A stretch of 29,884 bases of DNA from a bacterium. GTDB lineage: Bacteria > JALSQH01. Of this stretch, positions 7,366 to 29,370 are shown piece by piece. Made by a program: the position numbers and the translations under genes. Each line of letters opens with the position of its first letter. Positions within the stretch are counted from its first letter, which is position 1. The notes beneath the pieces are model-generated. The model had not been told where the DNA came from and searched no databases. It worked only from the letters and a program-made list of their open reading frames with translations. The stretch is from positions 1 through 29,884 of the forward strand of contig JALSQH010000195.1 of the NCBI GenBank assembly GCA_026985515.1, in the 5' to 3' direction.

Positions 7366-8229
7366 ATGGTTAAAATTGGAGTAATCGGAGGGAGTGGAAT
7401 TTACAGAATAGAAAATCTCAAGATTCTGGAAGAAAGAGAAATAACCACACCCTTTGGTGCCCCATCTGACAGGGTGGTAATTGGTGAACTGAAGGGAGTA
7501 AAAATTGCTTTTATTCCCAGACATGGGAGGGGACACTACCTTCTCCCATCGGAAGTTAACTACCGTGCAAATATATACGCCTTGAAGATTCTGGGAGTGG
7601 AAAGAATAATAAGCATCTCCTCTGTTGGCAGCATGAAAGAGGAAATTCATCCTGGTGACATAGTTCTCCCTGACCAGTTCATAGATATGACCAGAAAGAG
7701 AGAAAGTACCTTCTTTGGAAATGGTATTGTGGCTCACGTACAATTCTCAAAACCCACATGTCCTGTGTTGAGAAAAGTTCTCTATGACACTGCAAAGGAG
7801 CTTGGATACAGGGTGCACGATGGTGGAGTATATGTTAACATTGAGGGACCTCAATTTTCCAGCTTTGGAGAATCCATTCTCTACAGAAGCTGGGGCGTGG
7901 ATGTAATTGGAATGACAAATGCAACAGAGGCAAAGCTTGCCAGAGAAGCTGAAATATGCTATGCTACAATGAATCTGGTTACCGACTATGACTGCTGGAA
8001 AAGTGACGAAGAGGAAGTTTCTGTGGAGCTTGTTATCCAGAGATTCAATGAAAACATTAAGATGGCACAGAAAATTCTGGAAAATGTTATTGACAGAATC
8101 CCGGAAAGAAAAGATTGCCTCTGCGCGAATGCTCTTGAAGGTGCAATAATAACATCCAAAGAAAAAATTCCTCAGGAAACCTATGAAAAACTGAAACCAA
8201 TTATTGGAAAGTACATAAAATGGGAATAG
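7366..8229 (+). CDS. mtnP: S-methyl-5'-thioadenosine phosphorylase
   Basis: 287 residues of the PNP/MTAP family. It splits 5'-methylthioadenosine with phosphate into adenine and 5-methylthioribose-1-phosphate, recycling the by-product of polyamine synthesis. The phosphate-binding elements are GGSGIY (8-13) and RHGRGH (52-57). The nucleoside-binding stretch is [19 protein letters not shown] (182-200). D207 and D209 in TDYDCW occupy the positions that select 6-amino purines; guanosine/inosine phosphorylases have asparagine there, which favours MTA as substrate. The start has a strong AGAGGAGG site. It is first in a long gene cluster and overlaps the next gene, a PfkB kinase, by 10 bases. No mtnA or other methionine-salvage gene is in the window. 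Confidence 0.93.
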
Positions 8230-9122
8230 TAGTCGTTGGTACAGTTGCATATGATTCTATTGAAACACCCTTTGGAAAAGTGGAGGAAACTCTGGGGGGA
8301 TCTGCCCTGTATTTCACAGTAGCTGCAAGTTTTTTCACAAGGGTGGGAATTGTTGCAGTCATAGGAGAGGACTTTGATCTTGGAAAAATATCTTTTTTGA
8401 AAGACAGAAATGTAAGTTTTGACGGATTATATGTGGAAAAAGGTAAGACATTCAGATGGAAGGGTTACTACAGTTACAATCTAAATGAAGCCCATACACT
8501 CGATACTCAGCTGAATGTCCTGGAAAATTTTGACCCAATTCTCCCCGAGGAATTCACCCGGAAGGATCTGCTATTCCTGGCAAATATTGACCCTGAACTC
8601 CAGCTGAAGGTCCTTGATCAGATGAAAAATGTGAAATTCTCCGCAGCTGACACCATGAACTTCTGGATAGATTCCAAAAAAGAAAAGGTAATGGAAGTAT
8701 TCTCAAGGGTTAATGCTGTTACAATTAATGAGGGTGAGATCAGAGAGTTAACAGAGGAGTACAACCTGGTAAAAGCTGCCCGTAAAATTTTAGATATTGG
8801 ACCAGAGCATGTTATAATTAAGAGAGGAGAATATGGTGTCCTTGTCTTTGAAAAAAGTGGGGAAGTTTTTTTCGTCCCTGCATATCCTCTCGAAAAGGTT
8901 TTTGACCCCACAGGGGCAGGTGATACCTTTGCAGGAGGATTTATGGGGTTTCTTGATTCACAGGGAGAAATAAAAAGAAATCTGAGAAAAGCAGTTATTT
9001 ATGGAAGTGTGCTTGCCAGTTACAATGTGGAAAAATTCAGTTTTCTCAAGTTACTTGAGATTTCAAGGCAGGATATTGATGAGAGATACAGAGAATTCCT
9101 CAACTTTTGCAGAGTAGAATAA
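8220..9122 (+). CDS. PfkB-family carbohydrate or nucleoside kinase
   Basis: 300 residues of the ribokinase/PfkB fold. The N-terminal [11 protein letters not shown] (27-37) is the family's substrate-side glycine motif. The C-terminal [13 protein letters not shown] (229-241) holds the anion hole GAGD and catalytic base D235. The start lies inside the 3' end of mtnP (10-base overlap), and the stop overlaps the next ATG in TAATG, so translation is probably coupled. Because it follows MTA phosphorylase, a nucleoside or a pentose of the salvage pathway is an attractive substrate. That rests on gene order only, since PfkB sequences do not reveal their sugar by eye. Confidence 0.88.
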
Positions 9123-9724
9123 TGTATTCCATAGCTCCTGACATTAAATATATCAGTGCCACACCAGATGAGATCCTCGAACTCTACCGGTCCACCAATG
9201 AATCCCTTGTCCAGATTCCAGGATTCCAGGGAGAAAACAGCGAAGCATTTTTAATTACTCTGAATCTTGGTGGAAAAATCGAGGCTTATCTCTATTTCTT
9301 CCTCAAAGAATCTCTAACAGGGGTGGTGTACAGGTACACTGATCAGATAACCCGCACCAACTACATCGAGGTGAGAGATCAGGGACTCTACTTCCTGGAA
9401 AGTATGGGATTTATTATGGAAAACACAGATTTCAGAAAACTTCCCTCTGCAGAGAAGGTGAACCTTATGAACTCTCTTCCACCTTTTCATGCTGATCTAT
9501 CAAAGTTTCAGAAAAAAAGCGAGAAGGAAGAAGAAGAAAATGAAGAAGGAGAAGTTGTAGAGGTTGAGGTTCTGGAAGATGAACTTGAAACAATCCACGA
9601 GGTAACGGATGAACAACCTCAAATAGTCAGACCACCTCAAACGCTGACACCTGAAAACATAGAACTTGCAATGAAGAAAAACAGAGTTATAAGAGTTTTT
9701 CTGCTATTTCTTGCGGGGTTTTGA
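9122..9724 (+). CDS. Unknown protein with acidic linker and hydrophobic C-terminal tail
   Basis: I do not recognise this protein. The ATG at 9122 overlaps the kinase stop by one base (TAATG), so I prefer it to the upstream in-frame TTG at 9107; this gives 200 residues. Residues 1-130 look like a compact soluble alpha/beta domain (SEAFLITLNLGGKIEAYLYFF, then YIEVRDQGLYFLESMGF). Residues 134-163 are strongly acidic (KEEEENEEGEVVEVEVLEDE), and residues 166-173 are proline-rich (PQIVRPPQ). It ends with a basic then hydrophobic tail, KKNRVIRVFLLFLAGF, which might touch the membrane or a partner. It lies in the same cluster as the TPR lipoprotein and RodZ-like gene, so an envelope-related role is possible. 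No function can be assigned. Confidence 0.8.
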   Translation: MYSIAPDIKYISATPDEILELYRSTNESLVQIPGFQGENSEAFLITLNLGGKIEAYLYFFLKESLTGVVYRYTDQITRTNYIEVRDQGLYFLESMGFIMENTDFRKLPSAEKVNLMNSLPPFHADLSKFQKKSEKEEEENEEGEVVEVEVLEDELETIHEVTDEQPQIVRPPQTLTPENIELAMKKNRVIRVFLLFLAGF

Positions 9725-9726
9725 AA

Positions 9727-10491
9727 ATGAGAAGAAAAATTTTCCTTATTTCCAGTCTTACAATTTTTCTCTCACTTTCCTGTGCCACCTATAATGTGAA
9801 AAAAAACAAAAAAATGTACCGTGCATATCTGAGAATGGGGGTTTCATTTCTTGCCACTGGCAACTACAGGGCTGCTCTCACCAACTTCCTGCAAGCCAAA
9901 AAGATAAGGGATGATGATCCAGTTCTCTACAATTCACTTGGCCTTGCATATCTGGGACTGGGGGATCTGAAAGATGCGGAAAGATCCTTCAAAAAGGCTA
10001 TAGAGCTGAAGCCTGATTACTCAGAAGCACATAACAATCTTGGAGTAACTTACTCACAGGAGGGCTACTACCATCTTGCAATAAAGGAGTTCAACAAGGC
10101 GCTGAGCAACCTGCTTTATGCCACACCTGAGCAGGCTCTGGTGAATATGGGATGGGCTTACTACAAACTGGGCGAATACATTAAAGCTGAAAATTACACC
10201 AAACAGGCACTTTTAAGAAATCCGCGAATGTGCATGGCAAGGAAAAATCTCGGGCTGATTTACTGGGCTGAGCAGAGGTTAATGGATGCCGAAACTCAAT
10301 TGAAAAAAGCAATTTTTTACTGCCCCAGATTTGCAGAAGCTTACTTCAACCTCGGACTTCTCTACATTAAACTCAACAGGAAAGAGGAAGCATATAAACA
10401 ATTCAAAAAAGTAACAGAGGTTGCTCCTGACACTCCAATTGCAGAAGAGGCAGAGAAGTACCTGAAACTTCTTGGAGGGAAAAGTGGTTGA
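9727..10491 (+). CDS. TPR-repeat lipoprotein, PilF/PilW/Tgl-like
   Basis: 254 residues from the ATG at 9727, just after the previous stop. An in-frame TTG at 9721 is the other option; GGGG at 9715-9718 is 8 bases before 9727. The N-terminus is a lipoprotein-type signal (LTIFLSLSC) with probable lipidated C19, although the lipobox is imperfect. Six tetratricopeptide repeats fill residues 33-236 (for example YNSLGLAYLGLGDLKDAERS). YATPEQALVNMGWAYYKLGE is very like the PilF/PilW/Tgl pilotins that help assemble the type IV pilus secretin PilQ in the outer membrane. No other pilus gene is in the window, so a general TPR scaffold is the alternative. The next gene begins inside its 3' end, and the order pilF-rodZ is also seen in proteobacteria. 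Confidence 0.85.
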   Translation: MRRKIFLISSLTIFLSLSCATYNVKKNKKMYRAYLRMGVSFLATGNYRAALTNFLQAKKIRDDDPVLYNSLGLAYLGLGDLKDAERSFKKAIELKPDYSEAHNNLGVTYSQEGYYHLAIKEFNKALSNLLYATPEQALVNMGWAYYKLGEYIKAENYTKQALLRNPRMCMARKNLGLIYWAEQRLMDAETQLKKAIFYCPRFAEAYFNLGLLYIKLNRKEEAYKQFKKVTEVAPDTPIAEEAEKYLKLLGGKSG

Positions 10492-11215
10492 TGTTGGTGG
10501 TTATCTAAAAAAAGAAAGGGAAGCAAGGGGAATCTCTTTAGAGGAAATCTCAGAAGTTACAAAAATAAGCATGGAATTTTTGAGGGCAATAGAAAACAAT
10601 GAATTCAACAAGTTGCCGGCAGAAGTTTTTGTGATTGGATTCATAAAGAGTTACGCAAAGTTTATAGGGCTTGATGAAAATGAAGTGGTTAACATGTATA
10701 AACAGTATGTTCAGGAAAAAGAGGCAGAAGATGAAAAAGAGATAAGGGAAACTATAAAAAAGAGGAGATTCCCAGTTCTCCTTACAGGTGCAATTGTAAT
10801 CATACTCGCAGTCGTCCTTTTTTTACTGCTGTATAAAAAGAATCAGCCGGAAAAAATGAGAATAAATATTGCCCATACAAAATCTTTCCCCGCAGCTACC
10901 ACCTATCCTGCACCAGCCACAAATACTCCAAAGAAAAGAATCATTCTTGAAATTGTGGGGATAGCAAGGGGGGTGAAACCTGTATATGTTCAGTACTGCA
11001 CCGATACAACCTGCAGAAAAACAAGGAGTTTCTGGGAGGAAAAATACCTGCATAAAGGTGAAAAAATAACCATCACAGCCAGAGAACTCATCGGTGTGAT
11101 GGTTGATAATGCGGGGGGTATAAAAATCTACAGGAACGGGAAGGATCTTGGCTCACCTGGTGAATATGGCAGCACGGTGGTAAAATTTTTCAGACCGGGG
11201 GAAAATGAACCTTGA
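10484..11215 (+). CDS. rodZ: RodZ-like membrane protein (HTH_25, one helix, DUF4115)
   Basis: 243 residues starting at GTG 10484; GGAGGG (10474-10479) lies 4 bases upstream. A TTG at 10472 is in frame but sits on that site. Residues 4-68 form a helix-turn-helix domain (LKKEREARGISLEEISEVTK); residues 96-117 form one membrane helix. A Pro/Ala/Thr linker (134-150) leads to a beta-rich DUF4115-type domain (153-238). This is the RodZ architecture: RodZ binds MreB in the cytoplasm and helps rod-shape growth. The outer domain carries two cysteines, C172 and C177, which could form a disulphide. The gene overlaps the TPR gene by 8 bases and the next gene by 11. No mre or rod gene is visible, so a role linked to the receptor-like neighbours is possible. 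Confidence 0.85.
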   Translation: MVDVGGYLKKEREARGISLEEISEVTKISMEFLRAIENNEFNKLPAEVFVIGFIKSYAKFIGLDENEVVNMYKQYVQEKEAEDEKEIRETIKKRRFPVLLTGAIVIILAVVLFLLLYKKNQPEKMRINIAHTKSFPAATTYPAPATNTPKKRIILEIVGIARGVKPVYVQYCTDTTCRKTRSFWEEKYLHKGEKITITARELIGVMVDNAGGIKIYRNGKDLGSPGEYGSTVVKFFRPGENEP

Positions 11216-13751
11216 TAGAATAAAAGAAATTCTCGGCAGAAGAATTTTCATCTCCGGGCTCATCACTCTATTCCTTTTCCTGGGGATTTTCCTGATTGTT
11301 TCAGAGACAACATTTATAGAATTTTTCTATGTGGCTCTGGGGGTATTTCTCATCTTTATTCTTTATCTGGCAGGAGGATATTATCTGGCGCGCCACACAT
11401 TCTATCACAATCTTGAAATCGGGGAAGCCATATCTCTCAACAGATCTCTACACCCCTACAACATAAAAAGAGCCTACGTTGAATTGAAAGAAGCTCCTCT
11501 CCATTTCAGCATACTATCATTCACATTCTGGACGGTGATGGGTCTTATTATTCTATTCCTGGTCTACATAAATGGCGTAATATCTTTTGCCAGGTTTCTC
11601 CTCATATTTTTCACCTACTCCATTACAATTCTTGTATCACACCTTTTTCAGTGGTATCTCATTAAAAATTCCATTATCCAGCCTTTAAAATTTATTGGTG
11701 AGTATCTGGCAGTCAGAGGCGAGGAGGAAACGCTCCAGAGCGGCCTTTTTCTATCCATGAGGTCAAAAATTCTTCTGATTTTCTTCTCTCTCCTCATATT
11801 TTCAGGAGGAATAATCTCGCTCTGGGGAATAAGCAGAGTAAACACTGTTAGGAGAAACATAGATCTTGCCCTCATGGAGGAAATGGTCAAATCAGCCTAT
11901 CTAACCGCTGTTGCAAAAGGTGGAGTGAATAACCCATCTGGAACAACTGGCCAGATTGCCTTCCTTACAGAAGTTGACCACCGGGGAAATATCATATCGG
12001 GAGAAATGCTCCCAGAATATCTCAGCAGAGTCATTCAGAAAGGTCTGTCACACCTTACCAGAGACAACATTGTGCCAGATGAAAACTACCTGATTGTGGT
12101 TTCCCCACCCCTACAGAATGGACACAGATTTGTGGCATGGAAGGAGTGGAATCCCCTTTCCAGTGAGGTTCTTGATGTCATTAAGGATTACTTTACCCTC
12201 TTTCTGCTCATGCTTGTAATAGTGGGGGTAATCATAGTTCTTGCAACAAATGACTGGAGAGAAATTACAAATGCTCTGAATGTGTATCTTGCCAGGGTAA
12301 AAAGGGGAAATTTTAGCAGGGGAATTGTAATTTATACCGATGATGAACTGGGAGATATTGGTTCATATCTGAACCAGGTACACGACTTTTTCAAAAATGC
12401 CATAGCGGATGCGAGACAACTTACAATGCATACAGAAAAAAACATTGAAAAACTGCTTTCAAACATTTCATCTTCAGGTGAGATTGCACTGAATCTTAAA
12501 ATAATTTACTCCCAGCTATCCAAATTCCTGATTCAGCAAAAGAGGTTGATCTCAGCTCTCAGGGATCTTACGGAATATTCGGGACTCAACGGAATGTCAC
12601 CTGAGTTGCTGCAGTCCCTCACAATTGCCACAGGTAAGGCAAGAGGTGTAATTTCAACTGTTACTTCTCAATCAAATTTCATACGGGATAAACTGGTCCA
12701 GCATGAAAACTATCTTGAAGACATAGAAAAGGCACTCAGAGCCTTTTCCAGTTTTACCAGAAGATTCAGGACGAGGACAGACAAACTGATAGAAACTTCC
12801 CAGCACACCCTTGGAGCTGTAACTTCCTGTGAAACAATACTTAAGCGAATAACAAATTATGTTTCTTCAAACAGAATTTTCAATTCAAAACTTGAGGCAA
12901 CAAGAGACTCCTTCACAGAAACCATGGAATTTTTCAGGATCAGAATGGGGCGATTATTCCTTGGACTGGAAGAGCTGGAAAAAGTTCTTAATCTCATCTA
13001 CGAACTTTCTGAAGATACCAAAATAATCAGCTTGAACGCATCAATCATCTCCTCCCACGCAGAGGAAGAAGGAAGAAGTTTCTCAGTTGTGGCCAACCAG
13101 ATTCAGGCTCTTGCGTCAATATCTGGCGAATCAATTCACACCACAAAAGAAATCCTCACCAGATTAACAGAACTGAAAAATAACATTCTCGAGCAAACCA
13201 TAGAATTTCTTCAGAAATTTCAATCCACCATTCAGCAGGAGGGTGATAAATCAAAAGAAGCCGAACTGAATGAGCTTACAGAGTCAATTTCAGAGACTCT
13301 GAAAGATATTGAAGAGATTCTAAAGGTCACTCTGGAAACTTTCAGGTCCATAGAAGAAATTGATTCATTTGTAGAAAGTGTAGAAAATGAAATTGAACAG
13401 TTATCCCTTCTCATAAAATCATACAGAATGGAACTGGATAAGATTTCAGAAATACTGGAAGCAATTACATCTGAACTTACTCAGGCTGACAATATAACCA
13501 ACTTTAACATTCAAAAGGTTGAGCTTCTAAATCAAAATTTAACCGAATTACAGGAAAACTCATATGCGATTGAGACAACACTTAAAAGCATAGATAAACT
13601 TACAGAAGCTCTGGAAAGAGAAGTAGCCGAGAAGGAAAAGGAAACGAGCCAGATAAAAAACAACATTGAAGAGTTAATGCACATAACGGAAATACTGAGC
13701 AATGTAAATGAGAGAATGAAAAGGATCCTTATTGCGGGGTTCAAGCTGTGA
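11205..13751 (+). CDS. Chemoreceptor-like protein with multi-helix membrane front end (first of two paralogues)
   Basis: 848 residues. Four hydrophobic helices (about 14-32, 38-60, 102-122, 126-150) precede a classic receptor layout: helix 187-208, an outside domain of about 120 residues, helix 330-348 and a HAMP-like segment (350-400). The rest is a long coiled coil. At 603-650 it has a methyl-accepting signalling tip: SEDTKIISLNASIISSHAEE, then EGRSFSVVANQIQALA. The E-x-G-R-x-F-x-V-V-A core is kept, but the usual LNAAIEAARAGE is altered, so coupling to CheA may be weak, changed or lost. It overlaps rodZ by 11 bases and the next paralogue by 4 (GTGA). The outside domain has no motif I recognise, so the ligand is unknown. 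No cheA, cheW or cheR is in the window. Confidence 0.8.
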   Translation: MNLDRIKEILGRRIFISGLITLFLFLGIFLIVSETTFIEFFYVALGVFLIFILYLAGGYYLARHTFYHNLEIGEAISLNRSLHPYNIKRAYVELKEAPLHFSILSFTFWTVMGLIILFLVYINGVISFARFLLIFFTYSITILVSHLFQWYLIKNSIIQPLKFIGEYLAVRGEEETLQSGLFLSMRSKILLIFFSLLIFSGGIISLWGISRVNTVRRNIDLALMEEMVKSAYLTAVAKGGVNNPSGTTGQIAFLTEVDHRGNIISGEMLPEYLSRVIQKGLSHLTRDNIVPDENYLIVVSPPLQNGHRFVAWKEWNPLSSEVLDVIKDYFTLFLLMLVIVGVIIVLATNDWREITNALNVYLARVKRGNFSRGIVIYTDDELGDIGSYLNQVHDFFKNAIADARQLTMHTEKNIEKLLSNISSSGEIALNLKIIYSQLSKFLIQQKRLISALRDLTEYSGLNGMSPELLQSLTIATGKARGVISTVTSQSNFIRDKLVQHENYLEDIEKALRAFSSFTRRFRTRTDKLIETSQHTLGAVTSCETILKRITNYVSSNRIFNSKLEATRDSFTETMEFFRIRMGRLFLGLEELEKVLNLIYELSEDTKIISLNASIISSHAEEEGRSFSVVANQIQALASISGESIHTTKEILTRLTELKNNILEQTIEFLQKFQSTIQQEGDKSKEAELNELTESISETLKDIEEILKVTLETFRSIEEIDSFVESVENEIEQLSLLIKSYRMELDKISEILEAITSELTQADNITNFNIQKVELLNQNLTELQENSYAIETTLKSIDKLTEALEREVAEKEKETSQIKNNIEELMHITEILSNVNERMKRILIAGFKL

Positions 13752-16315
13752 AGGAGAAATGCTTCAAACTGGTTGGTGGAAAAGAAGGCTTAAAGATAAA
13801 CACCCAGATAACCCTCATTTTCACTGTAACTGCTGTAACTGGAGTGGTCGTTCTTTTTATAATCTTCAACTTTCTAACAGTTGCCACTGCCAACGAGATA
13901 AAGACGGCTCTCTACATTCTTGCCCCGACTCTCTTCACAACTTTCTGGATTCAACTTATTTACAATTACCGGAAATCAAAACCCATAAATAATTTCCTTT
14001 ACCTTAGCGAGAAAGGAATGATTGTTTCGGATGAAGAGATAAAAGAAGCCACTCTATCAATTTTAGAGTTTCCCCTTAAAGCAAGCCTTGTATCCTTTTC
14101 TCTGTGGCTTTTCAGTGGTATTACCCTCGTAACTTTTCTCAGAATAATACTTGGCACCTCTACAGCCAAACTATTTTACATCATGGTCTCAGTTATAAGT
14201 GGAGCTACTGCTGCTTTTATTTTTCTCTACTATCTTTTCAAACTTCCACTTAAAAATACAGCCTTCAGACTGCTCTCCACACTGCCAGGTAAAAAGATAC
14301 AGGAAGAGTACAGACTTATCTCTACAAGAACGAAACTCAACCTCACAATAATACTTATTCTTTTCTCCACCATAAGCATCCTTGCAATGCTCACCTATTC
14401 AAGGAGTATGCAGATCACTGCATCTGAAGAGGAAAAAATTATCAAAGAACTTCTCACTCCTGTTGAAAGGGCAAAAAGTGAATCTGAGATGTTGAAAAAG
14501 TTCAGCAAGGTTGAATCAATCATCGAAAACGATGGCAATTTCGATCTTTTTCTCTATGATGTTTACAATAACTCATTCCTTCACGCAGAACACAATTTCG
14601 CCAAAAACCGGGTTCTCCAGTCAATAATCAAACATGGATTCAACCGTGAAAGAACCAGAGCTCCCCTTTTTGCAATTTACCACCTCACATCATTTCCACA
14701 GTATTACGCAGTACTTAAATTTCCAGAAATAACCAGAACTTCACTGGGGAATGTAATCTGGATGATAATTCTACTCACAACCATATCAATACTGCTGGCA
14801 ATAATACTCCTCCAATTCTTTTCCTCTGATATATCGCGTCCCATCATGAGAACAAAAGAATTTGTGAAGCAGATGAAAAAGGGAGACCTCACTGGAAAAA
14901 TCTTCATCGTTTCAGAGGATGAAATGTTTTTTATCGCTCATCTTTTGAGATCCTACCGTGATGCCACAATAAGAATCCTGAACATACTGAACCACTATGA
15001 ATCAGAGTTGATACAGGTGACAACAAGCTTAACAGAAAGCATTGAATCATTTAAGGAAAAGTCAGAAAAAATGGAAACAGAAGAGATTATTCAGGAGTTC
15101 TCTGAAGTGGATATAAAAATAAGCGAACTTACCAGGTCCGCCAGTTCTCTCAGATCCTTTTCAGATCGAACTGCGGGCATTGTGAAAGAACTGAAAATGA
15201 GATTAGCAGATCTCGGTAAATTTAACGACCAGACTGTTACAATGCTGAGCAGTCTTGAATTTGAAAAAAATTCCCTCAAGGAGATTGCAGACAGAACCGG
15301 AAACGCAATAAAAAACCTTATGGGGGCACTGGATGCCATTGAGAAAAAGATAACCAATCTCGTAAATCACATCAACTCCCAGAAATTTCTCCTTGAAAAA
15401 ATTGGAAAGGAAAATGAATCCATACATGACAAACATCTTTCCTTCAAAGAAATCATAAAAGAACTCTCCCTATCAGTCACAACGCTGGAGCCTGTCTTCT
15501 CCAGCCTTGTTAGAGACATGGAGGTATTCAGGGAAAACCTTGCAATGGCAAAAGAACTCGCCATAAAAATAGGATCACTTTCTGAAAATTCTGAACTTAT
15601 CTCCTTTAACGCTGCAATCATTGCTGCATCATCGGAAAACTACAGCAGGGATTTTTCAATCATTGCTGAAGAAATGAGGGAACTCACCCAGAGGACTCTC
15701 AGTATTACAGAGGGTATCAAAGAAAAAGTTGACTGGATATCTTTCGTTGAAACAGAAATATTCAGCAAAATAGATCTATCGGTAAGACAATTCAAAGACA
15801 TCAAGGCGACCTTAAACAGCATGAAAGACAACAGTGAAATTGCACATGTACTCTCCAACAATTTGAGAGAAGAACTAAAATCCATCTCACATGATATTGT
15901 GAATCTCGAAGAAACCCTTCAGGAGATAGAATCGGGATTCTGGAAGGGTAAAAAGGGCCTTGAAGGTCTGGATGCAGCCTTCCACAATCTGCTTTCTGAA
16001 CTCACCAATCTTGAAGATGCAATAAACAAACTTTTCAATATCTCTGGAGGACTCAAAGAATCAATTATAACCTCACTTGCTTCCTATGAAACCCTGGAAA
16101 AGAACTACAGAAAAAACCTCCCGCTATTTGAAGAAATTAACAAAAATCTGAACTACCTGAATCTCGGAATGAAGAGGAAAAACGAAGCTATTTCCAGTCT
16201 CAAAAACAATCTTGCTTCACTCAAATCGGTTGTCAATGAGATAAAAACAAGTAAAGAAAAACTACTATCAAATCTCAGTACACTCACAGAAATAAATAAG
16301 ATGTTCAAATGGTAG
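13748..16315 (+). CDS. Chemoreceptor-like protein with multi-helix membrane front end (second paralogue)
   Basis: 855 residues, starting at a GTG that shares GTGA with the upstream stop; GCGGGG lies 8 bases before it. The plan matches its neighbour: helices near 20-45, 53-72, 108-133 and 142-165, then helix 195-216, an outside domain of about 115 residues, helix 334-357, a HAMP-like segment and a coiled coil to the end. The tip at 611-655 (SENSELISFNAAIIAASSEN, then YSRDFSIIAEEMRELTQ) aligns with a chemoreceptor hairpin but has lost the glycine of the E-x-G-R motif, so it is more degenerate than the first copy. The two probably arose by duplication and may form heterodimers or mixed arrays; both points are inference. 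Its stop lies inside the first codons of recO (7-base overlap). Confidence 0.78.
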   Translation: MKEKCFKLVGGKEGLKINTQITLIFTVTAVTGVVVLFIIFNFLTVATANEIKTALYILAPTLFTTFWIQLIYNYRKSKPINNFLYLSEKGMIVSDEEIKEATLSILEFPLKASLVSFSLWLFSGITLVTFLRIILGTSTAKLFYIMVSVISGATAAFIFLYYLFKLPLKNTAFRLLSTLPGKKIQEEYRLISTRTKLNLTIILILFSTISILAMLTYSRSMQITASEEEKIIKELLTPVERAKSESEMLKKFSKVESIIENDGNFDLFLYDVYNNSFLHAEHNFAKNRVLQSIIKHGFNRERTRAPLFAIYHLTSFPQYYAVLKFPEITRTSLGNVIWMIILLTTISILLAIILLQFFSSDISRPIMRTKEFVKQMKKGDLTGKIFIVSEDEMFFIAHLLRSYRDATIRILNILNHYESELIQVTTSLTESIESFKEKSEKMETEEIIQEFSEVDIKISELTRSASSLRSFSDRTAGIVKELKMRLADLGKFNDQTVTMLSSLEFEKNSLKEIADRTGNAIKNLMGALDAIEKKITNLVNHINSQKFLLEKIGKENESIHDKHLSFKEIIKELSLSVTTLEPVFSSLVRDMEVFRENLAMAKELAIKIGSLSENSELISFNAAIIAASSENYSRDFSIIAEEMRELTQRTLSITEGIKEKVDWISFVETEIFSKIDLSVRQFKDIKATLNSMKDNSEIAHVLSNNLREELKSISHDIVNLEETLQEIESGFWKGKKGLEGLDAAFHNLLSELTNLEDAINKLFNISGGLKESIITSLASYETLEKNYRKNLPLFEEINKNLNYLNLGMKRKNEAISSLKNNLASLKSVVNEIKTSKEKLLSNLSTLTEINKMFKW

Positions 16316-17022
16316 TTGATCTTATATCTGATGAAGGTATCATTCTCCAAAAAAGGATTGTTAAAGAAAAAGACTTACTTTTCAAAATACTCTCCATGGA
16401 GCATGGACTCCTGACAGCAATTGGATTTTCAGGTGCAAAAAGTAGAAAGAGAATCGGTGGAAAGGGAGAAAAATTCTCTCATGTCAGATTTCAGGCAAAA
16501 ATTTACAATTCATACATATCTATTGAAGATATATCCCTCATTGACCCTCATGAGAATCTGCTGCTCTCCCTTGAAAAAATAGCTTTATCAGAGCTGATTA
16601 CTGAAATCATTCTCAAATCTTTTCCCGAGGGTAAAAGAGAACCGGCCATTTTTAATTTCCTTCTCCAGGTATTGAAAGAAATAGAAAAGAAAGAAAATCC
16701 TCAAAATGATTTTCCCCTGCAGTTGTTCAATCTTTTGATTCTTGAAGGATACACTGTTCCACCAGAAAAGTGCAGACTGTGTGGAAAATCTCTGACCACA
16801 GCTTTCTTTATACCGGGTGAAGGTTTTGTATGTCCCGCCTGTTTTAAAAAGGGTCACCAGAAAGGAATATATTTCACAGAGAATGAAGTGACATGCCTGC
16901 AGGGATCAGAAGAATGGTGTTCCGGAACCGAAAATTTACTGGATAAAATCATAAGGATATGGGAAACAATCATCGAAAAACCACTCAGAAGTAAACAATT
17001 TCTTGCTGAGTTTATCAAATAA
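16309..17022 (+). CDS. recO: DNA repair protein RecO
   Basis: 237 residues, the usual length for RecO, which works with RecF/RecR to load RecA on SSB-coated gaps and to anneal strands. The N-terminal OB-fold is recognisable (DEGIILQKRIVKEKDLLFKI, then GLLTAIGFSGAKSRK). A C-terminal zinc site is formed by C155-X2-C158 (CRLCGK) and C175-X2-C178 (CPACF). The ATG overlaps the end of the receptor-like gene by 7 bases. It is the last gene of the cluster, with 81 bases before the next start. Its function is unrelated to its neighbours, so the link is likely transcriptional convenience. Confidence 0.92.
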   Translation: MVVDLISDEGIILQKRIVKEKDLLFKILSMEHGLLTAIGFSGAKSRKRIGGKGEKFSHVRFQAKIYNSYISIEDISLIDPHENLLLSLEKIALSELITEIILKSFPEGKREPAIFNFLLQVLKEIEKKENPQNDFPLQLFNLLILEGYTVPPEKCRLCGKSLTTAFFIPGEGFVCPACFKKGHQKGIYFTENEVTCLQGSEEWCSGTENLLDKIIRIWETIIEKPLRSKQFLAEFIK

Positions 17023-17103: not shown

Positions 17104-19758
17104 ATGTTAAAAAAGTCCTTACTGATTTTAATAGGTTGGGTTTTTATCGTAACTTTTTCTTCTCCCCGGGTCCTCAGGGCAGAAAAAGGACCAGCAGGTA
17201 AGGGTAACAATTATCCCCGGCAGAGTACAGTGTCAGAAAACAGAGCATTCCCCTCACAAAATACCTCTTCCGCCACTGCTCCTTCTCCCATTACTTCCCC
17301 ATCAAAAGCTTATTCGGGCAAAGCCACTCAACCGGAGGGAAAGAAAAAAACAGAAGTCAGACAGGGAGAAGAAGAAACAACTTCGGTAAAGGTAGTTCGA
17401 CCCAGGGGTTACAGCAACACAATAATAACAGGTTTTCCCAAAGAGAGAAAAGGGGATTATCTATCAGCAAATCTGTATGGTACTTCCGGATTGATAAGAT
17501 TGAGTGATACCAGGATTCCACCCCTTTACTCCTTCAGGCTTGGATTGAACATGGGTTTCTACTATATGGAAAAATTCATAGAAGACAGAACCCATACCCA
17601 TCTCGAAACGAGAGGTTTCTTTTCATACACTCCCTGGGATTATATAGAGGTTTATCTCCGGGGCTTTGCTTCAGCCCACAAAATCGGTGAAGATCCTTAT
17701 GGTATTAAGCCTGCAGAACTGCTCCAGGTTCTCGGAGATACCACCATTGGTGTTAAAGGAGCATACAACATTCAGCCGTACACTTTCATGTCTGTTGGTG
17801 GCAGACTCGAACTTACCTTTCCAACACGACTTGGAAACTTTGGAAGCACTTTAAGAGCAACCTCAATGGAAATCGATGCACTGTTTGAAATGAACTTTCA
17901 GAAATGGGAAAAAACCAGAATCCCCCTCTATGGAGTTTTAAATCTTGGATACCTTATTGACAATTCCTGGGCTTTAACCAGAAACATAAGACCTCTCTAC
18001 TGGAGCAGAGTAATTGGATACCACATAACTGAGGGTGACCAGATAAAATTTGGACTTGGAGTTGAATATCCCCATGATTTTTATTCACTAATCTTTGAAT
18101 ATACAACTGAACAGGTATTTGCGCACAGGTCATTCCTGCAGAGCCCCATGAGAATAACTCTCGGTGGGAAACTGAATCCCTGGGACTACCTGACTCTAAC
18201 AATGGGACTCGACCTTGACTTTTTTCAGAAAGGATATGTTCCTCCGAAAGCCACAGGAGACCTCAACAAAGAAGAGGTCGCTCCCAACTATCAGATTCTC
18301 TTTGGAATGGATTACATCTATTCACCCACTCAGGGAGGAGTTATTGACATAAGGGGACAGATAAAGGGAGTTGTTATTGATGTAGATACAGGGATGCCAG
18401 TCGGGGGTGCAATAGTTGAGTATGTTAATCAGCCACAGCTAAGCAAACAGGTTGTTGATCTGACAACGGGGGAATTCAAATCTTACAAGTTAATGCCAGG
18501 CGAAGTAATAATCAAAATTGAAAAGAAGGGTTATGTTCCAAAGATCATAAAGGCAAAAATAATTTCCAACAAAGTGATCACGGAAAAGATCCTTCTTTCA
18601 AAGATCTCCCGTGCAAAGGTGGCTATGGGGGCAATCGCCGGACAGGTTGTTGACAATAAGGGCAACCCTGTCAAAGCAACTCTCCAATTCTTGGAAACGA
18701 ACATTCCTCCCCTTGAAACTACCGAAGATGGAAAATTTGAGAAATTGCTCCCTGTGGGTGTATATAAAATTCTCGTCAAAGCCAGAGGATATGCTCCAAG
18801 GGCATTCAAAGTACCTGTCGAGGCAATGAAAAAAGTTGTGGTGAAATTTCAGCTTGTTAAAGGACCTGAAATTGGTGCCTTTGCAGGAAAAGTCGTTTCT
18901 TATGAAGGGAAACCCCTGGCTGCTGTTATAAGATTCATAAACAGCAATATACCTGAAATTACAACCAATCCAGAAACAGGGGAATTTTCAAAGATCCTGC
19001 CACCTGGCGAATATGAAATAGAAGTCGCAGCAAAGGGTTACGCTCCCAGACGATTTAAAATCCCTGTGCTGGCGGGTAGGAAGACAAAAGTAACCTTCAA
19101 ACTTGTAAAACAGGGTAGAATTGGGGCATTCGCAGGAAAGGTCCTTGACATGAATGGAAATCCAATTCCTGGAGCCACAATTCAGTTTGCTGATCCCCGG
19201 ATTCCAACAGTTAAAGTGGATCCAAAGACTGGAGAGTTCTTTATCAAACTCCCTGCTGGCACCTATGACATAAAGATTTCAGCACCTGGATTTAAAGCAA
19301 AGATCTACAGAGTTCCGGTACTGAAAGGCAAGAAAACACTTCAGGAATTCCATCTTGAAAGATTGAACAAACAGGGTGAAAAGGGTGGAGAAGCAACTGT
19401 AAAAATCGTAAAAAATAAAATAGTCCTGCCGGGTAAAGTGAAATTCAAAACCGGTACAGATAAGATCACAGAGGATAGTTTTTATTTCCTGAACCTTCTG
19501 GCAAACTTTCTGAAAAAGCACCCAGAGATAAAGAAAGTGGAAATTCAGGCCTACTCTGACAACCAGGGACCTTCTCTTCTCAACAAGAAACTCACACAGA
19601 AACAGGCTGAAGCGGTGAAAAATTATCTTGTAAAAATGGGAATTGATGAGAAAAGACTTATCCCAAAGGGATATGGAGAGGCAAACCCGATTGCTGATAA
19701 CTCCACACCAGAGGGAAGGGAAAAGAACAGAAGAGTTGAGTTCGTAATTCTCAAATAG
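17104..19758 (+). CDS. Outer-membrane chimera: beta-barrel, four carboxypeptidase-regulatory-like repeats and OmpA domain
   Basis: 884 residues. The signal peptide ends near VLRA/EKG (residue 26). A Ser/Thr/Pro-rich low-complexity linker (about 30-100) leads to a barrel-like region of aromatic beta-strands (118-405). Four beta-sandwich repeats of about 80 residues follow (417-500, 508-586, 591-668, 673-751); the last three are clear tandem copies, with IGAFAGKV opening the third and fourth and KGYAPR or RGYAPR motifs. The C-terminal OmpA domain (770-884) has FKTGTDKITEDS, AYSDNQGPS and NRRVEFVI; D819 and R877 correspond to the residues that bind diaminopimelate of peptidoglycan. The protein should span the outer membrane and tie it to the wall, with the repeats as periplasmic spacers. 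It has its own likely promoter, and its stop is 2 bases from a convergent gene. Confidence 0.85.
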   Translation: MLKKSLLILIGWVFIVTFSSPRVLRAEKGPAGKGNNYPRQSTVSENRAFPSQNTSSATAPSPITSPSKAYSGKATQPEGKKKTEVRQGEEETTSVKVVRPRGYSNTIITGFPKERKGDYLSANLYGTSGLIRLSDTRIPPLYSFRLGLNMGFYYMEKFIEDRTHTHLETRGFFSYTPWDYIEVYLRGFASAHKIGEDPYGIKPAELLQVLGDTTIGVKGAYNIQPYTFMSVGGRLELTFPTRLGNFGSTLRATSMEIDALFEMNFQKWEKTRIPLYGVLNLGYLIDNSWALTRNIRPLYWSRVIGYHITEGDQIKFGLGVEYPHDFYSLIFEYTTEQVFAHRSFLQSPMRITLGGKLNPWDYLTLTMGLDLDFFQKGYVPPKATGDLNKEEVAPNYQILFGMDYIYSPTQGGVIDIRGQIKGVVIDVDTGMPVGGAIVEYVNQPQLSKQVVDLTTGEFKSYKLMPGEVIIKIEKKGYVPKIIKAKIISNKVITEKILLSKISRAKVAMGAIAGQVVDNKGNPVKATLQFLETNIPPLETTEDGKFEKLLPVGVYKILVKARGYAPRAFKVPVEAMKKVVVKFQLVKGPEIGAFAGKVVSYEGKPLAAVIRFINSNIPEITTNPETGEFSKILPPGEYEIEVAAKGYAPRRFKIPVLAGRKTKVTFKLVKQGRIGAFAGKVLDMNGNPIPGATIQFADPRIPTVKVDPKTGEFFIKLPAGTYDIKISAPGFKAKIYRVPVLKGKKTLQEFHLERLNKQGEKGGEATVKIVKNKIVLPGKVKFKTGTDKITEDSFYFLNLLANFLKKHPEIKKVEIQAYSDNQGPSLLNKKLTQKQAEAVKNYLVKMGIDEKRLIPKGYGEANPIADNSTPEGREKNRRVEFVILK
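18625..19356 (+). repeat. Tandem coding repeats (three copies, about 246-249 bp) in the OmpA-like gene
   Basis: Copies begin near 18625, 18874 and 19120. At the protein level each starts with GAIAGQVV, GAFAGKVV or GAFAGKVL, has an NIP or RIP motif, then a glycine turn (EDGKFEKLLPVG, ETGEFSKILPPG, KTGEFFIKLPAG) and a closing valine-rich strand. DNA identity is lower than protein similarity, so the duplication is old. Confidence 0.8.
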
Positions 19759-27287: not shown

Positions 27288-27839
27288 CTACTTTGTAATC
27301 AGTAAGGTTTTAATAAATAATATCACAAAAATTGAAAAAATTCCCAGCCATGTCTGCCACTCTCTGTGCTTCTTCATTGCAAGGGAGAAATCGTAATCTC
27401 CTCCCCTTCTGAATTTCCGGGGATCAGGAAAAAGTCTCGGAACACTTTCCCTGTACTGAATAAATTCCTCACCGAAAATTTTTTCCAGTTTTTCTTCTTC
27501 ATAAAGTATCAAATTTGTATAGGTTACCAGGAAAAAAACGACAAAGATCATCACCCAGATCCAGCCTCCAAGTAAACTTATACCAAGCCCCACCAGAAAG
27601 CTGCCAAGATAAAGGGGATTCCTGACAAAGGAATATGGTCCATCCCTGGCAAGAACCTTATCCTTGTGAATATATCCTGACGCCCAGGTCCTCAGAGCCT
27701 CCCCTGCTACAGAAACAATTATTGCGGGAATAAAAAGCTTTTTCTCAGGTTTTACAAAAATCACAAAGAGAATTGCCAGAATGTAACCCATCAGCAATCT
27801 GTATCTAACGAAAAACATTCTTATATTATTTTTCTCCAT
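27288..27839 (-). CDS. Isoprenylcysteine carboxyl methyltransferase/phospholipid methyltransferase-like membrane protein
   Basis: 183 residues with about five membrane helices (12-30, 34-52, 76-92, 95-112, 162-181). The SAM-binding signature of the ICMT/PEMT family is present: [13 protein letters not shown] (67-79), then [18 protein letters not shown] (113-130) and VPRLFP (133-138). In bacteria such proteins methylate lipids or small envelope molecules rather than prenylated proteins; the substrate here is unknown. The gene begins inside the 3' end of rfaE2 (14-base overlap), which suggests a role in envelope or lipid modification. The fifth helix, beyond the usual conserved core, is an extra C-terminal anchor. 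Confidence 0.88.
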
Positions 27840-28314
27840 TGCACAATAATTCCTTCAATTTTTCCAGAATGGATGTTGTTGAATGATTCTTTGGATCACC
27901 AACTATTCTGACTTCTCCACCATATTCTCTGACAATACCCGCTTCAGGAACTGTTTCAGGTGTGTAATCTGTACCTTTGGCATGAATATCTGGTTTGAGA
28001 AGTCTTATAACATTCTCCACTGTGTCATCCTCAAAAATGAAAACATAGTCAACAAAGGGTAGCGAAGAAATTATCTCCACTCTTTCCTCCTGAGGGAAAA
28101 TGGGCCTACCCTCCCCTTTCAATCTCCTCACGGAATCATCACTGTTAACCGCCACAAAAAGCACGTCACCTTCCTCTTTTGCAGCACTCAGATACCTTAG
28201 ATGTCCAACATGAAAAAGATCAAAAGCACCATTGGCAAGAACAATTTTCTTACCCTCTTTTTTTAACTTCTCACCAAGCTTTTCAATATCCTGAAGTTTT
28301 ATCACACTGCCCAT
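27826..28314 (-). CDS. rfaE2: D-glycero-beta-D-manno-heptose 1-phosphate adenylyltransferase
   Basis: 162 residues, matching the C-terminal half of HldE. It transfers AMP from ATP to heptose-1-phosphate to make ADP-heptose for the lipopolysaccharide inner core. The nucleotidyltransferase motif H-x-G-H is H35-V-G-H38 in [15 protein letters not shown]. The C-terminal ATP-binding motif is HSTTSIL (144-150), and [13 protein letters not shown] (113-125) is typical of this subfamily. The ATG comes one base after the rfaE1 stop (TGAAATG), so translation is surely coupled. ADP-heptose is also a signalling molecule in host-associated bacteria, but nothing here suggests that use. Confidence 0.95.
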
Positions 28315-28315
28315 T

Positions 28316-29287
28316 TCAAACCACTTTGCTTATTTCATCAATAATCTCGTCAACAGTCACAGTGGCGGTACCGGGTTTTTTTACCACTACTTCCGCAGCC
28401 ACACTTGCAAGGTAAACTGCCTCAAGGGGGGACAACCCAACAAGAGTACCATAGGCAAGTGCAGCAAGGACAGTATCACCCGCCCCCGACACCTCAACAG
28501 CTTTTCCACACCCAAATCTGCCAACATAAACTTCTCCCTCTTCACCGGCATAAGCCATCCCTTTCTCTCCAAGCGTTACCACAACATTTCTGGAATCTGT
28601 GTTGCTCTTCAAAGCAGATGCGAGTTGCACTCCCTCACCCTCTGCAAACTCCTGAGCCTCTGCCTCGTTGGGAGTTATGAAAAAGTGCCCTCTAAATTTC
28701 CCGGAAGATTTTCTTGAATCCACCAGGATCTTTTTGTGACTGAAAGAATTGATCAATTCAATAATTTCCTCATCAAACATAAATTGACCATAATCAGAGA
28801 CAACAATCACTTCCTCTTCTCTTAACAATTTTTCCAGAGACCCCTTGAAGCGTTTTTTCTCATCCTCTCTGAATTCTGCTTCAGTTATTCTGTCCAGTCT
28901 CAAAAGCTGCTGGGGGGGAAACACATCACCCCCTGCCAGAAACCTCGTTTTCTCCGTTGTGGTTCTCCCCTCAGATATGATAAATCCACCCAGATCCACT
29001 CCCTTACTTTTAAAAATATCCATGAGAATCTCACCTGTTGTGTCATTCCCCACGATTGTGAGAGCATTGACCTCAAGCCCCAGGGAGAGGAGATTGTTCA
29101 GGGCATTGGCTCCTCCTCCAGGAACAAGATTTTCTCTCTCGTATCTGAGAATAATTACAGGTGCCTCACGGGAAATTCTTTCAGGATACCCCACAACAAA
29201 TCTATCCAGAATCATCTCCCCCACAAATCCAACATGAGCAGGTTTTTTATCCAAAATTTTCTCAAGAATATTCTTGAAAATCTGCAT
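28316..29287 (-). CDS. rfaE1: D-glycero-beta-D-manno-heptose-7-phosphate kinase
   Basis: 323 residues, matching the N-terminal half of HldE. This PfkB-fold kinase phosphorylates heptose-7-phosphate at C1. Family features are RISREAPV (37-44), the glycine motif [16 protein letters not shown] (55-70), KTRFLAGG (113-120), the linker [11 protein letters not shown] (205-215), and the catalytic [12 protein letters not shown] (266-277) with base D271. I set the start at 29287 because a TATAAT box at 29303-29298 makes the upstream ATGs, one of them inside that box, untranscribable. The leader would then be only about 4 bases. It is the first gene of a seven-gene minus-strand cluster. HldE is a fusion in E. 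coli; here the two halves are separate neighbours. Confidence 0.94.
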
Positions 29288-29297
29288 AGATATTTTC

Positions 29298-29306
29298 ATT
29301 ATACCA
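29298..29306 (-). promoter_or_regulatory. Extended -10 promoter of the rfaE1-to-priA cluster
   Basis: Read on minus, TGGTATAAT (29306-29298) is a perfect -10 with the TG extension one base upstream. No good -35 lies 16-18 bases further up, which is normal for extended -10 promoters. The start codon follows 10 bases after the box, so the mRNA is nearly leaderless. Confidence 0.65.
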
Positions 29307-29370
29307 TAAGAAATGAGGAATTTCATACAAATGCCTGATTACCTATCGGGAGATAAATTGGAACACTTAT

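Follow-up and report, generated by a model that had tools for sequence, protein, structure and literature searches.

A tandem pair of divergent chemoreceptor-like genes in a run with pilotin-like and RodZ-like genes

Why would two long chemoreceptor-like proteins be encoded in one unit with a candidate pilotin and a RodZ-like protein, with no cheA or cheW beside them? The question is raised by a stretch of 29,884 nucleotides (JALSQH010000195.1, assembly GCA_026985515.1; hereafter the window), which is the complete contig C195 of a metagenome-assembled genome (G000) of 2.36 Mb in 268 contigs, 97.6% complete. At 9122-16315 the window carries five open, co-directional genes overlapping head to tail, which code for an acidic protein of an unnamed family (Acid), a tetratricopeptide repeat (TPR) lipoprotein, a RodZ-like protein and two receptors, MCP-A and MCP-B. 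As the arrangement recurs in unrelated bacterial lineages, we propose that it is probably a genuine connection between the sensing of the envelope and the machinery of pili or of cell shape; we found no RodZ-chemosensory-pilus operon, nor any such cassette, described in the literature. In the normal case, CheA reads out a chemoreceptor and methylation tunes it. A pair that lacks recognizable methylation sites, whose tip is strongly conserved in the single lineage allowing such a measurement, and that shares an operon with pilotin-like and RodZ-like genes across several phyla (more than one) would offer a testable case of receptors adapted to the control of the envelope or of cell shape.

Gene order and its recurrence

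The junctions within the five-gene unit are tight: Acid and the TPR gene overlap by 4 bases, RodZ and MCP-A by 11, and MCP-A and MCP-B by 4, while TPR and RodZ overlap by 20 bases if RodZ starts at the first TTG, and by about 8 to 11 if it starts at one of the nearer GTG codons. An earlier, sequence-only reading had recognized these five genes as a single, very likely co-translated unit, and its genes, frames and overlaps are confirmed. However, the unit does not end there and forms the central part of a longer string of genes, mtnP-pfkB-Acid-TPR-RodZ-MCP-A-MCP-B-recO, in which mtnP and pfkB share 10 bases, pfkB and Acid share 1 (the ATG of Acid lies at 9122), and MCP-B overlaps recO by 7, leaving no gap in the run.

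Searches with MCP-A and MCP-B covered 59 genomes from separate families, and those with MCPx, the first receptor of a similar pair, covered nine genomes of the phylum to which genome G021 belongs. In a genome of the same family as ours (G001, JALTID010000190.1), rlmN-mtnP-pfkB-Acid-TPR-RodZ-MCP-A stand in identical order up to the contig end. A metagenome-assembled genome labelled Candidatus Dadabacteria (G049, RFIY01000357.1) displays the order TPR-RodZ-MCP-MCP, with 4-base overlaps throughout. In the G021 phylum, a similar MCPx-MCPy pair is directly followed by recO on all five complete contigs (G021, G389, G391, G168 and G306); in three further cases the contig ends cut it short. MCPx is present in eight of the nine genomes. 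The 4-base overlap between the paired receptors is thus seen in three lineages. Receptor trees, of which the second was built without two junk rows of the first, unite MCP-A with its counterparts from G001 and G049 in one clade (support 93-96/83-86); the equation of MCP-B with the second G049 receptor, and of the G021-phylum pair with MCP-A/B, is by order, length and position. The linkage is hence neither private to this genome, nor are the receptors invariably accompanied by standard che genes and unrelated to the TPR/RodZ pair, which are the two outcomes that the earlier reading had named as fatal to it. Viral contigs searched with MCP-A yielded no relatives. A defence system was also considered and rejected, as the PADLOC matches are coiled-coil noise.

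The receptor-free versions of the block are far commoner. Acid-TPR-RodZ, or TPR-RodZ alone, is found in many families, often 3' of rlmN, mtnP or pfkB and mostly without an MCP. The gene mtnP precedes Acid-TPR in four genomes (G001, G015, G179, G150) and TPR-RodZ in G012, and pfkB occupies the matching position in G001, G015, G012 and G044. Acid-TPR-RodZ is an old block. In G057 it is followed by one MCP of the canonical class, which is sister to a che-cluster receptor of its own genome, and this kinship suggests that a receptor was seemingly recruited to the block more than once. In G053 (L115:9108-15192) we observed a separate association of this kind, with a RodZ-like gene beside a canonical MCP, not far from CheW and a CheR-TPR protein.

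Receptor architecture, length class and tips

Both proteins score above the Pfam cut-off for MCPsignal (34.6 bits), MCP-A with 50.0 bits and MCP-B barely so with 34.9. They are divergent receptors without adjoining che genes, as the earlier reading had it. Hydropathy reveals an N-terminal hydrophobic region in both. In MCP-A, hydropathy together with an AlphaFold model of moderate to low confidence (predicted local distance difference test, pLDDT, 65 at the N-terminus) gives the order of four N-terminal transmembrane (TM) helices, TM5, a small extracytoplasmic alpha/beta domain resembling PAS or Cache, TM6, a linker that may be HAMP-like and the receptor hairpin. The matches of its N-terminus to WalK, McpB and PAS domains in the PDB are weak. 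Neither protein has a Pfam HAMP match, though the length and the low-confidence model leave room for such a domain.

The hairpin arms are strikingly uniform. The stretch between the last TM helix and the tip spans 258-271 residues in MCP-A, MCP-B, the two receptors of G049 and the pair of G021 (about 268 in MCP-A/B); that between the tip and the C-terminus spans 227 in MCP-A, 224 in MCP-B and 224-234 across all three pairs. Two other receptors of the same genome give 266 and 228 (C198_804) and 273 and 224 (C203) for these distances. Across lineages the arm lengths hold constant to within some ten residues, and the coiled coil of MCP-A/B comes to about 64 heptads (about 32 per arm), a class estimated from residue counts alone, matching the canonical receptors of its own genome. 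The 64-heptad (64H) class is an established one among MCPs (PMC6943060), and receptors sharing a length class have been proposed to co-cluster (PMC2577667). MCP-A/B share with class 64H MCPs the long hairpin, the TM sensor, the MCPsignal match and an arm length like that of their genome's own canonical receptors, but differ from these receptors of alternative-function chemosensory systems in the absence of a methylation consensus, an altered tip, the lack of che neighbours and the N-terminal bundle of four TM helices.

As regards methylation, none of the eight members of such pairs inspected (A, B, G049A, G049B, G021x, G021y, G306x and G306y) has a consensus site, as against three in C198_804 and two in the C239 receptor of the same genome; the consensus derives from other receptor classes, such that unusual sites could escape it. 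The tips read LNASIISSHAEEEGRSFSVV in MCP-A and FNAAIIAASSENYSRDFSII in MCP-B, as compared to the canonical LNAAIEAARAGExGRGFAVV. The equivalents of E385 and R388 of Escherichia coli Tsr, which in that numbering we take to contact CheA/CheW and the receptor trimer, are I and H in MCP-A and I and S in MCP-B. The wider canonical-looking receptor class in these genomes has I and Q at the same positions, which weakens the argument from the tip residues either way. In the G021-phylum pair, the one for which tip conservation can be measured (the MCP-A/B sequences being too few), the tip is the most conserved segment, with 25-residue blocks reaching 0.92 in MCPx (mean 0.55) and 0.83 in MCPy (mean 0.47). 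The tip is thus under selection there and still contacts something.

Contig C198 encodes a second receptor (L078:9635-11680) whose tip is degenerate (IISAQVTSIEGRSFEII) and which has no methylation consensus, in tandem with the canonical C198_804 and inside a full che cluster. Degenerate partner receptors thus recur in this genome.

Weighing the possible roles of the pair

The absence of cheA and cheW noted by the sequence-only reading holds for the contig but not for the genome, which has several che clusters with complete CheA/CheW systems: one on C198 with genes for CheA, CheW, a CheR-like protein and CheB along with HEAT-repeat and AAA proteins, and further ones at C239 and C141. Given these systems and the equal coiled-coil length, the pair could still use them. 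Hence, we tentatively favour, short of confidence, the explanation that MCP-A/B are adaptation-free accessory receptors in or beside a 64H-like array, biasing an alternative-function pathway over pilus or surface machinery, since they keep the arm length and have lost the methylation sites and kinase-contact residues. Under this proposal, an envelope-biogenesis operon of Acid, the Tgl/PilW-like outer-membrane lipoprotein and the RodZ-like protein would have recruited a tandem pair of long six-TM receptors, which would be co-produced and most likely form one mixed receptor complex. The complex might sense the state of the membrane or periplasm via the bundle of four TM helices and the small PAS/Cache-like domain, and would sit in or beside the canonical array. 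The presumed co-expression of the receptors with the pilotin-like lipoprotein and RodZ suggests that the process under control, or being sensed, is the assembly of the pilus or the envelope.

Several observations weigh against this proposal. With the E385 and R388 equivalents replaced, binding of MCP-A/B to the CheA/CheW baseplate is doubtful; while the arm length points to array membership, the lost methylation consensus and this pair of tip residues point to action free of CheA. Next to the homologous receptor pairs we found no che gene, the flanks in the G021 phylum having been scanned in part. In that phylum, Acid-TPR-RodZ lies on other contigs, apart from the receptor pair. Further, trees and profiles leave both the orthology of MCP-B with its G049 counterpart and the kinship of the G021-phylum pair with MCP-A/B unplaced, on account of long branches.

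It is quite possible, though we lean away from it, that there is no coupling at all, the divergent pair having lodged by chance in the housekeeping string rlmN-mtnP-pfkB-Acid-TPR-RodZ-recO. After all, the same run contains the unrelated housekeeping genes mtnP, pfkB and recO, most Acid-TPR-RodZ loci have no MCP, and the receptor in G057, as a sister of a che-cluster receptor of its genome, is a local duplication. Against chance lodging stand the recurrence of an MCP pair with recO or RodZ in three lineages, with 4-base overlaps, and the retention of the first receptor in eight of nine genomes of the G021 phylum. Of the coupling between the receptors and the TPR and RodZ genes that had been read from the sequence, the recurrent linkage thus stands; with the block mostly receptor-free and the G021-phylum pair separate, the functional coupling itself stays a proposal.

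We consider it unlikely that the A/B hairpin acts independently of CheA by binding the cytoplasmic domain of RodZ, Acid or pilus parts, and so links the state of the envelope directly with MreB or the assembly of the pilus. The lost methylation consensus, the altered tip and the strong conservation of the G021-phylum tip are all consistent with such a role, as are the presence of receptors in an operon with RodZ in three genomes and the separate cases in G057 and G053 of RodZ beside an MCP. A precedent is offered by Tls of E. coli B2, a chemoreceptor-derived regulator acting outside chemotaxis (PMC12623472). Like MCP-A/B it is receptor-derived, and its output is not chemotaxis; however, it retains only a truncated piece of the signalling domain, behind a short N-terminus of its own, whereas MCP-A/B are full-length membrane receptors. 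The retained canonical arm length is better explained by an array, the G053 locus has CheW and CheR nearby, and the G021-phylum pair stands apart from RodZ. A fuller form of the CheA-independent reading, which we regard as decidedly unlikely, would make MCP-A/B a conserved heteromeric pair, free of CheA and of methylation, that binds RodZ, Acid or pilus-assembly proteins and passes the state of the envelope straight to the MreB cytoskeleton or to pilus secretin assembly. Finally, that MCP-A/B are pseudo-receptors drifting since duplication, as the weak Pfam scores and the absent methylation consensus might imply, is very improbable in the face of full-length open frames, near-constant arm lengths and the conserved tip of the G021-phylum pair.

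The associated envelope proteins, their possible clients and flanking genes

Acid comprises a conserved N-terminal domain of about 125 residues, an acidic low-complexity linker and a short C-terminal amphipathic helix (RVIRVFLLFLAGF), which the alignment shows to be kept in most complete members. Acid has no match in Pfam, NCBIfam or PDB sequences; its family is conserved across many bacterial families yet nameless in every library tested. Its homologues were recovered in 19 of the 386 genomes searched, nearly always directly 5' of the TPR gene. The linker and the conserved C-terminal helix suggest a docking peptide. An AlphaFold model was set aside as a guide to its fold, since at pLDDT 50 the fold matches are meaningless.

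The TPR protein has five or more TPRs and a signal peptide with the lipobox LSLSC^A, and a cysteine near the N-terminus is present in the homologues inspected. Its best NCBIfam models are Tgl (NF033762, 131.5 bits, cut-off 225) and PilW (TIGR02521, 112.3 bits, cut-off 154), which agrees with the earlier call of a pilotin-like protein; with scores below the curated equivalog level, we treat it as a pilotin candidate. Tgl/PilF functions in PilQ oligomerization in the outer membrane (PMC5285504). Our protein shares with the Tgl/PilF/PilW pilotins the form of a TPR lipoprotein with a lipobox and a genome that encodes PilQ, but it falls under both equivalog cut-offs and is encoded beside RodZ and receptors instead of pil genes.

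The RodZ-like protein has an N-terminal HTH_25 domain (Pfam, E=1e-23), a single TM helix and a C-terminal domain resembling RodZ_C that scores just under the cut-off (22.9 versus 23.9 bits), and there is no equivalog-level match among NCBIfam models. Judging from the start of its G001 homologue, its true start is probably a GTG about 9-12 bases inside the call at 10472. RodZ binds MreB via its helix-turn-helix (HTH) domain (PMC3599482), and MreB is likewise encoded in this genome. The genome also carries a second HTH of the RodZ type, preceded in the same protein by a DnaJ-like domain (C32, L159:28-618).

The search for pil and che genes elsewhere, proposed along with the sequence-only reading, recovered, in addition to the che clusters, PilQ at C224 (TIGR02515, 466 bits versus 284), downstream of small genes in pilN/O/P-like positions, and MreB at C255 (497 bits). 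PilQ and MreB are possible clients for the TPR and RodZ-like proteins, respectively. A type II secretion system secretin is encoded at C174.

Table 1. Genes of the run and the gene that follows it, with positions in the window
Feature	Position	Strand	Basis
mtnP-like phosphorylase (PNP_UDP_1), opening the run	7366..8229	+	Pfam PF01048 4e-46
PfkB-family sugar/nucleoside kinase	8220..9122	+	Pfam PF00294 2e-29
Acid, unnamed protein family	9122..9724	+	alignment of homologues
TPR lipoprotein, Tgl/PilW (PilF)-like pilotin candidate	9721..10491	+	TPR families, lipobox, NCBIfam
RodZ-like bitopic protein with HTH_25, a single TM and a weak RodZ_C	10472..11215	+	Pfam; G001 homologue start
MCP-A	11205..13751	+	Pfam MCPsignal 4e-13, hydropathy, arm lengths, AlphaFold model
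MCP-B, architecture as MCP-A, tip even more degenerate	13748..16315	+	Pfam MCPsignal 34.9 bits
recO	16309..17022	+	NCBIfam TIGR00613 99.7 bits vs cut-off 48.7
CarboxypepD_reg repeats and OmpA domain, probable envelope protein	17104..19758	+	Pfam; 81 bases 3' of recO

A homologue of the OmpA/CarboxypepD_reg protein is also found downstream of MCP-MCP-recO in G391 (L171:15177-16763), extending the shared gene order. Two of the che clusters (L078 and L079) have unusual partners, namely HEAT-repeat proteins (670 and 752 residues long) and, next to CheW, ATPase-like genes with similar N-termini (L078:15089-15958, an AAA_22 protein by Pfam, and L079:775-1581). Lastly, adjoining genes for a PfkB kinase and a cytidylyltransferase at 27826-29326 of the window resemble a split heptose-phosphate kinase/nucleotidyltransferase pair (RfaE-like), which fits an envelope bearing lipopolysaccharide.

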